Positions 52,926 to 59,826 of a stretch of DNA of 64,000 bases are shown in pieces (positions within the stretch are counted from its first letter, which is position 1; each line of letters opens with the position of its first letter). Made by a program: the position numbers and the translations under genes. Source of the stretch: Bacteroidota bacterium (GTDB lineage Bacteria; Bacteroidota; Bacteroidia; NS11-12g; UBA955). The notes beneath the pieces were generated by a model that saw only the letters and a program-made list of their open reading frames with translations, did no database searches and was not told the origin of the DNA. Where the stretch lies: contig JAIYAW010000007.1 of NCBI GenBank assembly GCA_027488835.1, positions 1 to 64,000 of the forward strand, written 5' to 3'.

Positions 52926-53259
52926 GCTTATGAGTGTTTATGAGGGTTCGAAAAAACATAAACATAGTTTAATATTAAATATAAAACGCACTTTTATTGC
53001 ACAATTAATAAATCCACAAACTAATACAATCTTTATAAATACTTAAAAGGCTAATTATATCTTCCGAACTAAAACAACGTATATTTCGAAAGCAATCAAA
53101 TAATTAAACTACTAGCTAATTAACCTTCATAAACGCTTATAAACCTAGTTTGAATTTTCGAACTAAAAATAACGTGCAATTAAAAAGCTCAAATTTAGTT
53201 AATCTGAAAACGAATTCAACCTTTATAAACGCTTATAAACTTAATTAACGCTTATAAAC
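52926..53259. repeat. Gene-free region with decamer repeats (GTTTATRARN) and a duplicated ~20-bp block
   Basis: This 339-base stretch between two convergent genes (52925-53263) has no convincing ORF. GCTTATGAGT and GTTTATGAGG stand in tandem at 52926-52945, just after the E1 stop. On the minus strand, decamers GTTTATAAGC and similar occur at 53250-53259, 53221-53240 and 53125-53144, just after the ychF stop at 53264. A partly conserved block (TTCGAACTAAAA...AACGT) occurs at 53061-53080 and 53156-53175, about 95 bases apart. It has very low GC. No strong hairpin terminator was seen here. Confidence 0.6.
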
Positions 53260-53263
53260 CTAG

Positions 53264-55922: not shown

Positions 55923-57614
55923 ATGCAAAAAATTGTTGAATGTGTTCCTAATTTTAGTGAAGGAAAAAATTTACAAATTATCAAACAAATTACCGATGCC
56001 ATGGAAAGTGTTGATGGCGTGCAATTGTTGGATGTAGATCCTGGAAAAGCAACCAACAGAACGGTTGTAACCATAGTTGGAGAAGTAGAATTGGTGGTTG
56101 AAGCCGCATTTAGAGGCATCCAAATGGCTTCAATATTAATTGACATGCGCAATCATTCTGGAGAACATCCGCGTATGGGTGCTACCGATGTTTGTCCTCT
56201 TATTCCTATTTCAGGAATTTCAATGGAAGAAACCGCACAATATGCACAACAATTGGCAAAACGTGTAGCTACAGAACTTTCCATTCCAACTTACTTATAT
56301 GAAGATGCCCAATCCAATAAAAATCGCTCAAATTTGAGCGTAATTAGGGCTGGCGAATATGAAGGTTTCTTTGAGAAAATTAAAGATCCTGCTTGGGTTC
56401 CCGATTTTGGAAAAGCAGAAATGAATGCAACCGCCGGTGCAACTGTTATAGGTGCCCGAGATTTTTTAATTGCATTCAATATCAACCTAAATACAAAAAG
56501 CACTCGTGTTGCTAACCGCATTGCCTTTGATGTAAGAGAAGCCGGAAGGGTTAAACGTGAAGGGAATCCTATTTCAGGAAAAATTATGAAGGATGAAAAC
56601 GGTGAAGATGTTCGTATTCCCGGTAAATTAAAATCAGTGAAAGCCATTGGTTGGTTCATTGAAGAATACAACATTGCACAAATTAGCATGAACTTAACAA
56701 ATTACCATGTTACCCCACTTCACATTGCTTTTGAAGAAACTCGAAAAAGTGCCGATGAGCGTGGGGTTCGGGTTACAGGTAGCGAATTGGTGGGACTCAT
56801 TCCTTTGCAATCCATGCTTGATGCTGGAAAATTCTTTATTGAAAAACAAGGATTAAGCTCAGGTATCAGCGAAGCTGAACTTGTAGATATTGCCATTAAA
56901 TCTTTGGGACTAAGTGAAATTTCAAACTTCGATCCAAAAAAGAAAATTATTGAATATATCCTTCAAGATCCTAAAAAATCAAAGTTGGTTTCAATGACAA
57001 TAAAAGGATTCGCAGACGAAACAGCTTCTGATAGTCCCGCACCAGGTGGAGGAAGTATTGCAGCGCTTTCTGGCGCATTGGGGGCTTCTTTGGGAACCAT
57101 GGTTGCCAACTTAAGCGCTTCTAAAAGAGGTTGGGAAAATAGAGTAGGTGAATTTTCTCCATGGGCTGAAAAAGGACAAAAACTCAAAGATGAATTGTTG
57201 TTTTTGGTTGATGAGGATACCCGTGCATTTGATGGAATTATGGCTGCTTTTGGACTTCCAAAAGACAATGCAGAACAAATAGCTCTGCGCAAACAGGCCA
57301 TTGAAGAAGCGAGTAAGTACGCCACGGAAATTCCTTTCAAAACTATGCAAGCCGCGTTTAATTGTATTCCTTTGTTGCAGGAAATGGCAAAAAATGGCAA
57401 TCAGAATTCTTTGAGCGATGTGGGAGTTGGTGCCATTTGCATCAAAACGGCGGTAAGAGGTGCTTGGTTGAATGTATTGATCAACGCAAAAGGACTTAAC
57501 GACCAAGTTTGGGCAAAAAATATAGTTGAACAGGCTAGAAAGTTGTTGGCCGAAAACCATATTTTGTGCGATGAGATTGTAATCGGGATTGAAAGGGAAT
57601 TAGAAGGTTTATGA
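55923..57614 (+). CDS. ftcD: Glutamate formimidoyltransferase/formimidoyltetrahydrofolate cyclodeaminase
   Basis: Bifunctional enzyme of histidine degradation that moves the formimino group from formiminoglutamate to tetrahydrofolate, then deaminates it to methenyl-THF. The N-terminal transferase (about 1-330) starts with V-E-C-V-P-N-F-S-E-G and has D-M-R-N-H-S-G-E-H-P-R-M-G-A-T-D-V. The C-terminal cyclodeaminase (about 360-563) has D-S-P-A-P-G-G-G-S-I-A-A-L-S-G-A-L-G-A-S-L near 376. It is the fused form, as in animals and many Bacteroidota. The stop codon lies inside the first unit of a decamer repeat. The rest of the hut pathway is not in the window; it would also supply one-carbon units to folD and purine synthesis. 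Confidence 0.94.
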   Translation: MQKIVECVPNFSEGKNLQIIKQITDAMESVDGVQLLDVDPGKATNRTVVTIVGEVELVVEAAFRGIQMASILIDMRNHSGEHPRMGATDVCPLIPISGISMEETAQYAQQLAKRVATELSIPTYLYEDAQSNKNRSNLSVIRAGEYEGFFEKIKDPAWVPDFGKAEMNATAGATVIGARDFLIAFNINLNTKSTRVANRIAFDVREAGRVKREGNPISGKIMKDENGEDVRIPGKLKSVKAIGWFIEEYNIAQISMNLTNYHVTPLHIAFEETRKSADERGVRVTGSELVGLIPLQSMLDAGKFFIEKQGLSSGISEAELVDIAIKSLGLSEISNFDPKKKIIEYILQDPKKSKLVSMTIKGFADETASDSPAPGGGSIAALSGALGASLGTMVANLSASKRGWENRVGEFSPWAEKGQKLKDELLFLVDEDTRAFDGIMAAFGLPKDNAEQIALRKQAIEEASKYATEIPFKTMQAAFNCIPLLQEMAKNGNQNSLSDVGVGAICIKTAVRGAWLNVLINAKGLNDQVWAKNIVEQARKLLAENHILCDEIVIGIERELEGL

Positions 57615-57644
57615 AAGTTTATGAAGGTTTATAAGGGTTTAGAC
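57607..57644 (+). repeat. Tandem decamer repeat GTTTATGAAG at the ftcD stop
   Basis: GTTTATGAAA (57607-57616), GTTTATGAAG (57617-57626), GTTTATAAGG (57627-57636), then GTTTAGAC (57637-57644) repeat with an exact 10-base period. The first unit includes the ftcD stop codon. Confidence 0.75.
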
Positions 57645-57649
57645 TTTAA

Positions 57650-57730
57650 CTAAACGCATAGTAATGCTTCTAAACTCCGAAGGAATCTAAACGAGCGAAG
57701 CTCATCTAAACGCACGAAATGCATCTAAAC
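57650..57730 (+). repeat. CTAAAC mini-hairpin array (four units of about 19 bases)
   Basis: The hexamer CTAAAC occurs at 57650, 57670, 57687, 57706 and 57725. Each of the four intervals contains a short self-complementary stretch: GCAT-AGTA-ATGC, TCC-GAA-GGA, GAGC-GAA-GCTC and GCA-CGAAA-TGC. The stems differ in sequence but each pairs with itself, while the GAA loop recurs. The array ends 3 bases before the ATG at 57733. It may act as DNA or as the 5' leader of that gene's mRNA. Confidence 0.75.
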
Positions 57731-57732
57731 AA

Positions 57733-58683
57733 ATGAAAAAACTAACGTTCATATTGACACTTTTTGCAGCCGCAACCGCTGATGGGCAATTTGCTCCAGC
57801 GGCAGGAAAAGCCGGAAGCACAGCCATTAAGGCAGACAGTTCTTGCTTCGTCAATTGGGCCATCGACTGTACCGTGAAAAAAGGTTTGGCACAAATCAAC
57901 TTGGCTGATTCTGGTTATGCATCCGTTGGAACTGCAAATGCAGCCATTGGGCAAGCGCTCAAAAATGGCGTTGTAAGTCTGGGTGACGGTGGTTCGGCGG
58001 TGCTCTATTTTAATCCGCCAATTGAAGATCAAGAAGGTTTCGACTTCGCCATTTTTGAAAATGCTTTCCTTGATACTTTTTTAGAGTTTGCCCACGTTGA
58101 AGTAAGCAACGATAAAATAAATTGGATTAAATTCCCTTCAGTTTCGCTTACCCAAACTACCAAACAAATTGACCCTTTTGGATATACCTACCCCGAAAAT
58201 ATTTCGAACTTGGCAGGAAAATACAAAATGCCTTACGGTGTACCATTTGATCTTTCAGAACTCAAAGACAGTCAAAACTATCAAACTACTTTTCAGTATG
58301 TTAGAATAACCGATGTGGTGGGTTCTATAAATCCAGTATTTGGAACTAAAGATTCAAAAGGCAACATGATCAACGATCCTTGGCCTACCCCATTTGCAAG
58401 CTCAGGCTTTGACCTCGACGCAGTAGGTGTGATACACCAATCTGCTAATTCAAACAATGTTAACTCGCTTACTAAAATTCCATTTTGTCATTTCAATAGA
58501 CAAACCCATCAAATGGAATTTAATCACTCATTGAATGAAACAGTTACAATATTCAATTCAAACGGAACCCTGATTTTTCAAAAATATATTACGGGCAAAA
58601 CTATGCAAATCCCTCCAAATATCGCTTCGGGATTGTATTTTATAGCTTGTTCCAATGGAACCGTGAAGTTGATACTGGATTAA
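57733..58683 (+). CDS. Secreted cell-surface protein with short T9SS-type sorting tail
   Basis: A 316-aa protein with a signal peptide (cleavage near A-D-G-Q). The main domain has G-D-G-G-S-A-V-L-Y-F, E-G-F-D-F-A-I-F-E-N-A-F-L, L-E-F-A-H-V-E-V-S-N-D and S-G-F-D-L-D-A-V-G-V-I. This pattern is seen in a group of Bacteroidetes cell-surface proteins of unknown function. The last ~75 residues (V-T-I-F-N-S-N-G-T-L-I-F, A-S-G-L-Y-F-I-A) resemble a Por secretion tail. It is convergent with the serine hydrolase, only 1 base apart. Extracellular binding role is inferred. Confidence 0.7.
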   Translation: MKKLTFILTLFAAATADGQFAPAAGKAGSTAIKADSSCFVNWAIDCTVKKGLAQINLADSGYASVGTANAAIGQALKNGVVSLGDGGSAVLYFNPPIEDQEGFDFAIFENAFLDTFLEFAHVEVSNDKINWIKFPSVSLTQTTKQIDPFGYTYPENISNLAGKYKMPYGVPFDLSELKDSQNYQTTFQYVRITDVVGSINPVFGTKDSKGNMINDPWPTPFASSGFDLDAVGVIHQSANSNNVNSLTKIPFCHFNRQTHQMEFNHSLNETVTIFNSNGTLIFQKYITGKTMQIPPNIASGLYFIACSNGTVKLILD

Positions 58684-58684
58684 A

Positions 58685-59806
58685 TTATTTCAACAAACCC
58701 ACCATATCAATGGTGCGTAAAAATGAACCACTCACGTTGTTTGTAAGGACAACAAAACATTTATTTTCGTCGAGGCAAGACCAAAAGTAGGTTCTAAAAC
58801 CTTTCCACCAACCGTTGTGAAAGGCCCATCGTTTGCCATCTATCCATTTGATTCTCCAACCCATGGCATAATAGCCGTCGGCACTGGCAACAGCCGTTGG
58901 TGTCCACATTTCTTGCTTGGTATAACTATGTAATATGTAGGAACTTCTCAAAGCCCTATCTAACAGAAACATTTCAAAAACACTGGAATACACCCCTTTG
59001 TCACCGGTAGTTCCATTGAACATATTGTCGTCAAACATACTCCAATTATCGTAACCTTGCACTGGATAATCTTGAAGCGGAATACTATCAAAATTACAAA
59101 TATGGGTAAACTTCATATCCGCAACTTTGCAAATATTATTTTTCACAAATGACCTAAAATCCTGTTTGCTGGTTCTCTCAACAATCAAACTCAACAATGC
59201 AAAATTAGAATTGCAATAATCATAATTCCCAGGTCGTACAAAGCGTTTATCGGGTTGTGCATTTAACAAATCAACAACGTCTTCATTTACCAAGTGCTTA
59301 TTTCCTTCCCGCAAATTAAATCCTCTGTAATTAAAATAAAAGTAATCTGGAAGTCCAGAGGTATGGCTCAATAAATTCCGGATAGTTAAGTTAGTTCGTT
59401 TGAATTCAGGAATATACCAATGCACACTGTCGTCTATATTCAAATACCCGTCTTGGTGGAGCATCATCACCGAAATTCCTGTAAAAACTTTCGACACAGA
59501 CGCAAGTTGAAATACTTCATCGGGGTAAATAGAATCTTTGGTGCCCCACAACCTAAAACCGCGAGACCCATAAATGATACTATCATTTTTGAACATCAAA
59601 AACGACCCATTAAAGTTCCCAATCCTATTGAATTTGTCAAAAAACTTATTAATTTTTCGGGAAGTGGTATCTGAAAATGGGACATACTTTTGCTTAAAAG
59701 CAAATTCAGTTGAACTCATTGGCCGGGTATTTTGCGCTATAAGATATTGAGGGACAATTATCCCCAATAAAAAAAAGAAGCGGCAATATTTACGAAGCTG
59801 TTGCAT
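58685..59806 (-). CDS. Exported serine hydrolase, class C beta-lactamase/esterase family
   Basis: A 373-aa protein from the ATG at 59806 (an in-frame TTG at 59821 lies in the -7 box). A signal peptide ends near L-I-A-Q. The family's three active-site motifs are present: S-V-S-K (S-x-x-K) near residue 105, Y-C-N (Y-x-N) near 200, and H-N-G (replacing K/H-T/S-G) near 336. It is probably a penicillin-binding or peptidase/esterase relative; true beta-lactamase activity cannot be inferred. It faces the surface-protein gene at its 3' end and has a -7 box upstream. Confidence 0.85.
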   Translation of the reverse strand: MQQLRKYCRFFFLLGIIVPQYLIAQNTRPMSSTEFAFKQKYVPFSDTTSRKINKFFDKFNRIGNFNGSFLMFKNDSIIYGSRGFRLWGTKDSIYPDEVFQLASVSKVFTGISVMMLHQDGYLNIDDSVHWYIPEFKRTNLTIRNLLSHTSGLPDYFYFNYRGFNLREGNKHLVNEDVVDLLNAQPDKRFVRPGNYDYCNSNFALLSLIVERTSKQDFRSFVKNNICKVADMKFTHICNFDSIPLQDYPVQGYDNWSMFDDNMFNGTTGDKGVYSSVFEMFLLDRALRSSYILHSYTKQEMWTPTAVASADGYYAMGWRIKWIDGKRWAFHNGWWKGFRTYFWSCLDENKCFVVLTNNVSGSFLRTIDMVGLLK

Positions 59807-59818
59807 ATTCAACTGCAA

Positions 59819-59826
59819 CAAAAATA
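59819..59826 (-). promoter_or_regulatory. -7 promoter box (TATTTTTG) for the serine hydrolase gene
   Basis: The minus strand TATTTTTG ends 12 bases before the ATG at 59806 and overlaps the in-frame TTG at 59821. Confidence 0.45.

Follow-up and report, generated by a model that had tools for sequence, protein, structure and literature searches.

The window analyzed here, 64,000 nucleotides of contig C2 in the 2.49-Mb genome G000, carries the focal array between two genes encoded on the plus strand. The upstream gene (open reading frame 55923-57614; Pfam FTCD_N, FTCD and FTCD_C) is for formiminotransferase-cyclodeaminase. The downstream gene (57733-58683, plus strand; 316 amino acids) is present in 13 of the 14 genomes of the genus and gave no match in Pfam. 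Convergent with it on the minus strand lies an ordinary beta-lactamase-family (PF00144) gene at 58685-59821. The repeat element between the first two genes begins with a left arm (57607-57642, plus strand) made of three GTTTATRAR repeats at 10-bp spacing and then GTTTAG, inverted relative to CTAAAC, and the last codons and stop of the upstream gene fall within the first of these repeats. The centre, ACTTTAA (57643-57649, plus strand), separates the last GTTTAG from the first CTAAAC, and alignment places a central segment, GGGTTTAGACTTTAA, at both the focal site and the orthologous place in three relatives. Copies of CTAAAC then start at 57650, 57670, 57687 and 57706, and a fifth copy on the same strand closes the array at 57725-57730. 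The original prediction described the four CTAAAC units and missed the left arm. The array ends two bases before the start codon at 57733. Further 10-bp arms of the left-arm repeat, of the TTATAAACGC type and without hairpin units, lie elsewhere in the window (53121-53262, minus strand).

Each of the four units, all on the plus strand, consists of CTAAAC followed by a small hairpin and two further bases. Unit 1 (57650-57669) has GCAT-AGTA-ATGC and TT, its counterparts elsewhere being mostly GCAT-GGCA-ATGC, while unit 2 (57670-57686) has TCC-GAA-GGA and AT, a form also found in G012 and G005. Unit 3 (57687-57705) has GAGC-GAA-GCTC and AT and contains GCGAAGC. The self-pairing stems previously noticed in these three units are confirmed in the window sequence. 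Unit 4 (57706-57724; GCACGAAATGC), with GCAC-GAA-ATGC and AT, had been described as a separate hairpin with a CGAAA loop. Compared with its family, in which GCACGAAGTGC, or GCAC-GAA-GTGC, is found in many copies, the unit is better read as that family form with one substitution at the loop-closing pair.

A genome search for CTAAAC arrays, proposed along with the original prediction, uncovered further arrays both in G000 and in its relatives. Two CTAAAC copies 8 to 16 nucleotides apart (CTAAACN8-16CTAAAC) occur at 24 places in G000 compared with 30 in a reversed control, so it is the hairpin that stands out and not the spacing; most of the 24 matches hold perfect mini-hairpins with different stems (GAGC, GCAC, GCAT, GAAC, GGC and TCC). 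When the hairpin is part of the pattern (TAAACN0-4GCGNAGCN0-7TAAAC), there are 12 matches in G000 and 59, 26 and 18 in three relatives, with none for the reversed pattern, and the 10-bp arm repeat forms 124 tandem pairs in G000 versus 0 in the reversed control. The TAAAC-linked GCGNAGC hairpin is found in 6 of the 14 genomes of the genus, and these are the only ones to have it among the 70 genomes of the family (6/70). Arrays are most abundant in G011, G012 and G013, and reach 18-19 units in G012. In contiguous stretches not picked for arrays, the density is 28-29 per 240 kb in G011 and 3-4 per 220 kb in G000, control motifs giving 0-2 and reversed sequence 1-4. Over the loci surveyed, which outside L145-L167 were chosen by pattern and for which ORFs were called mechanically, the arrays are dispersed, intergenic and present in many copies. 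The focal array is best read as a single member of a DNA repeat family that is lineage-specific and scattered between genes.

The linkers of this repeat come in two dialects, CTAAAC with units of 12-15 nt and GTAAAC with units of 9-11 nt, and individual units are preceded by CTAAAC, GTAAAC, TTAAAC or TCAAC. Outside the TAAAC form, a general two-hairpin pattern matches controls in several genomes, and only tandem arrays that were read directly are counted here. They are found in G003, a member of the same genus lacking the TAAAC-hairpin form, in which GCGNAGC arrays have the linker GTGAGTCCTA, and in G105, from another family, in which the linker is GCCCAAACA. At one G105 locus (L173, C4:140000-144000), in this other family of the order, GCGAAGC and GCGTAGC hairpins alternate along with two alternating linkers. 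The arms also occur apart from the hairpins. On contig C1 of G000 (L055, 5830-14532) and elsewhere in that genome, intergenic regions have 10-bp GTTTATRARN arms and inverted NYTYATAAAC arms on opposite sides of an AT-rich centre, often with no hairpin units, and several of these regions have a similar centre sequence. In addition, a palindrome, TCCCGAAAGCTTTCGGGA (and TCCCGATAGCTATCGGGA), recurs in array-bearing intergenic regions (L113, L111, L064 and L059).

The original prediction also held that the fold of the units is kept and not their sequence, and aligning the units does reveal stem pairs that change together. Units were grouped by length only, aligned and compared with 500 shuffles. 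For units of 14 nt, 90% of cells are paired versus 72.5% after shuffling, with a covariation score of 0.489 versus 0.189; in the 11-nt class, from which five arm-type or unrelated segments were taken out by eye before the count, a step that favours the result, the values are 96.8% versus 68.7% and 0.749 versus 0.231. None of the 500 shuffles reaches the score of either class, and controls in which partners were slid one to three columns out of register give at most 51% pairing. With all 11-nt segments left in, the direction is the same (0.689 versus 0.423). Excluding the GCGNAGC units that were used to find the regions, the excess persists in the 11-, 12- and 14-nt classes, while the 9-nt class without them shows no excess (0.333 versus 0.277, inside the shuffle range). 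These results support the shape of the array units, not their sequence, being what is kept, with kinship among copies inflating the covariation counts.

The loops follow a rule of their own. Among 84 unique stem-loop combinations in all, partly taken from regions fetched with GCGNAGC and so possibly enriched by the search pattern, triloops have G first in 41 of 60 cases and A last in 52 of 60, the middle base being free, and the closing base is C in 55 of 60; tetraloops have A last in 23 of 24 and a pyrimidine third in 22 of 24, and are mostly GNYA or TTTA instead of the GNRA of RNA. In a contiguous 240 kb of G011, a count without search-pattern enrichment though on a contig picked for carrying arrays, the TAAAC strand has 62 GNA loops versus 1 flipped TNC and 18 GNNA versus 2 TNNC, with controls near zero. 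Each unit is thus a constant linker (CTAAAC or GTAAAC) and a stem of 2-5 bp with a mostly C-G-closed GNA, GNNA or TTTA loop. Given the loop and covariation results, it is scarcely credible that the arrays are a chance pattern or one drifted tandem repeat of shared ancestry with a meaningless fold. Related copies inflating the counts and a CTAAAC spacing no more frequent than in the reversed control would suit such an origin, but covariation in two unit classes, the failure of the register-slid controls, the freedom of loop position 2 with positions 1 and 3 fixed, and the recurrence of the mini-hairpins with other linkers contradict it.

Synthetic oligonucleotides and aptamers have made the stable cGNAg mini-hairpin well known. 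Most of the unique hairpins here conform to the rule for mini-hairpin DNA of the Hirao type, namely a GNA or GNNA loop with C-G closing and at least two G-C pairs, of which GCGAAGC, with a Tm of 78 C, is an example (PMC4686876). A search of open-access papers for GNA mini-hairpins together with intergenic bacterial repeats yielded no report of them as a natural repeat. A comparison of DNA and RNA energies with the ViennaRNA parameter sets, whose files carry no triloop terms, gave no triloop preference. The fold of the 136-nt focal stretch is only mildly unusual (z of -1.9 for RNA and -1.7 for DNA). Small DNA hairpins with C-G closing and a 5'G...3'A triloop are also found in the promoters for the phage N4 virion RNA polymerase, where a C-G closing pair and a three-base loop of the 5'G...3'A form are required and the hairpins extrude in vivo (PMC4496689). 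However, the N4 hairpins are single phage promoters, while those described here are dispersed bacterial repeats for which no phage link was found.

Relative to the flanking ORFs, 78 arrays fall into the four orientation classes 22, 22, 15 and 14 times, 5 of them having no neighbour on one side, and 4 of the 78 lie inside ORFs. As to a replication-strand bias, G011 has arrays on either strand inside a 20-kb span. Arrays antisense to both neighbours have forward loops in 14 cases versus 2 flipped. Because the arrays take all orientations and antisense arrays keep the loop rule, a transcript-level function common to the family is unlikely, and the shape is apparently maintained at the level of DNA. 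The 5' leader initially suggested, or a riboregulator, was rejected as a shared function on the orientation of the arrays relative to genes, since they do not lie regularly in sense upstream of genes as an RNA leader would. The other suggestions made at that time, that the family propagates in hairpin form or is used as single-stranded DNA, agree with the loop rule, with the asymmetry between strands and with the absence of a set gene orientation. That the repeat is an RNA element, working on a neighbouring gene's transcript as a 5' leader or a 3' structure, is accordingly very improbable, although the focal array lies between two co-directional genes right before the ATG, and intergenic heptamer repeats just upstream of starts in Beggiatoaceae have been proposed as translational sites (PMC4679880). 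In addition to the orientation data, arrays between convergent genes, tetraloops unlike those of RNA and the lack of any Rfam match within the window at the gathering threshold argue against it. At its own locus, the focal array is probably transcribed, as relatives show an abutting gene pair there, and it may influence the downstream gene locally.

The focal site itself differs between relatives. The upstream stop codon and the downstream ATG overlap in G008 and G004, and G001 and G002 have the genes side by side with almost no spacer. In G003 (L137) and G010 (L138), the region between them holds other 7-bp inverted tandem arms of unlike sequence (GGTCTTT/CCGATCA; GGTANNN/NNNTACC), and in G005 and G009 the arms are of the GTTTAAC/ATAAACC type. 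G011-G013, whose downstream-gene protein is 76-85% identical, have GGGTTTAGACTTTAA and three short TAAAC hairpins where G000 has long-stem units. Overall, flanking genes in G000 and the relatives share 75-92% nucleotide identity, while the repeat content and length of the intergenic regions differ, though some arrays are stable, the units at L066 7400 and L118 3688 largely matching. Ordered modules of units also recur at non-orthologous loci; the order in the window, GCAT, TCC, GA(G/A)C, reappears in G012 at another locus and, in part, in G005.

Such a distribution bears on whether the host selects the structure, with hairpins extruding under negative supercoiling to serve as a topological buffer or as sites for nucleoid or SSB-type proteins. 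The extrusion of N4 promoter hairpins in vivo under sub-physiological supercoiling (PMC4496689) and the arrays filling 17 of the 49 intergenic regions of at least 100 bp in G011 would be in keeping with that role. However, many species of the same genus are without arrays and orthologous intergenic regions differ in their repeats, meaning that no function is maintained throughout the genus. Together with the unbiased orientation to genes, this makes host selection decidedly unlikely.

Among known repeats, cyanobacterial STRRs are short-period intergenic tandem repeats akin to heptamers of the TAACTGA type. The arrays resemble such heptamer repeats in being short-period, intergenic and tandem, with site occupancy that differs between relatives, but unlike plain heptamer direct repeats they alternate a linker with covarying mini-hairpins. 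For the arms, the nearest known kind is the plain intergenic heptamer repeat of Bacteroidetes, where direct repeats at a site in one species are absent in relatives (PMC4679880).

Between their arrays, G011 and G013 also hold accessory genes that are absent from the orthologous G000 interval (L159, L162, L126 and L114; in G011, L159 is at C1:66195-71411 and L162 at C1:130133-133231). They include a RES toxin with an Xre antitoxin, HigB with an HTH partner and a DUF6088/AbiEi-like gene, as well as a 23S rRNA IVP, Fic, Abi_2 and a DDE transposase. The idea that arrays are breakpoints for gene gain was dropped, since an initial p of 1.8e-4 became 0.37 with only intergenic regions of at least 100 bp. 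The toxin-antitoxin and Abi genes between G011 arrays suggested integron cassettes. Integrons recombine at attC sites, which are recognized in the form of a folded single strand of DNA (PMC2727003, PMC6393395), a likeness to the arrays. However, the units lack the attC core sites RYYYAAC and GTTRRRY, TAAAC having an A where RYYYAAC needs a Y, and the arrays do not regularly bound both ends of a cassette. For the integron integrase (TIGR02249), nothing exceeded the cut-off in the 14 genomes, and weak matches also appeared in all 14 control genomes. Without a core site or an integrase, the arrays are not filed with integrons.

Like REP/BIME sequences with their TnpA_REP (RAYT), the arrays are dispersed intergenic palindromes with a constant short 5' sequence beside a small hairpin. 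TnpA_REP of Marinomonas acts on REP_Mb, which has a 5-bp stem whose swap is only moderately harmful and a T-T-N-A loop (PMC8266576), so that the exchangeable stem and the loop fixed at its outer bases are features in common. In contrast to REPs, the arrays have CTAAAC or GTAAAC in place of GTAG or CGTC, and they are tandem units of different stems. No Y1 transposase (PF01797, NF047646) was significantly matched in G000, G005, G011, G012 or G013, the only match being in G007, which has no arrays. Mobilization of the REP/RAYT or IS200 type by a known enzyme was rejected accordingly, as was copying by a reverse transcriptase, RVT_1 being undetected in the carriers. As the relatives are mostly incomplete metagenome-assembled genomes, absences are weak in G012 (58%) and G005 (74%), while G000 and G013 are 99-100% complete. 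Having a dispersed, intergenic, many-copy distribution but neither GTAG nor a transposase, the arrays are not filed with REPs.

It is nonetheless possible, if somewhat unlikely, that the repeat is a non-autonomous mobile element whose units are copied by a trans-acting ssDNA nuclease or recombinase recognizing TAAAC and the hairpin. The putative enzyme would be REP-transposase-like, but different or since lost. The constant 5' sequence near the hairpin, the exchangeable perfect stems and the fixed outer loop bases match the needs of the Marinomonas enzyme (PMC8266576), and modules common to several loci and the abutting gene pair in relatives are consistent with mobility. Opposed to this are the missing Y1 transposase in every carrier, the nearly complete G000 and G013 among them, the carriers' lack of a detected reverse transcriptase or an integrase above cut-off, the absence of GTAG and CGTC tags, and two exact scans of viral contigs that found no array.

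We tentatively favour propagation through hairpin-driven template switching together with recombination between arrays, at somewhat less than even likelihood and with every step of propagation inferred. Single-stranded DNA at forks, in repair or extruded by negative supercoiling would snap into hairpins, leading to propagation of the unit. A polymerase that stalls or switches template at the hairpins would keep stems complementary and sometimes invert the loop, and may gain or lose units between TAAAC microhomologies. Recombination between arrays could then carry ordered blocks to other intergenic sites, and an array propagated in this manner need not serve the genes flanking it. When the template is switched at a hairpin, the stem can be made perfect again and the loop turned around (PMC8794818), and units with an inverted loop on the same stem, one predicted footprint of the process, do exist, if rarely (GAGC-TGC-GCTC and GAGC-TTC-GCTC). 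That rarity weighs against template switching, as passive switching should often yield inversion, and suggests that something keeps the orientation, either the stability of the hairpin or recognition by a protein. Moreover, template switching by itself leaves the spread to new loci unexplained, and no pair of genomes among the relatives was close enough to catch a single propagation event.

A bolder proposal, which we consider unlikely as it stands, is that the arrays serve as substrate for an undescribed ssDNA recombination or copying system that would read the hairpin shape and a TAAAC-type linker, the linker differing by lineage (TAAAC, GTGAGTCCTA or GCCCAAACA), so that the fold and not the sequence would be inherited. 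The GNA mini-hairpin is here what dispersed bacterial arrays conserve while their linkers and stems are exchanged, and it occurs with at least two other linkers. If our reading is correct, these arrays would record, naturally and in countable form, the secondary structures that DNA adopts inside living bacteria. They would also provide a testable case for deciding between passive template switching and a hairpin-reading enzyme as the force that shapes intergenic DNA.
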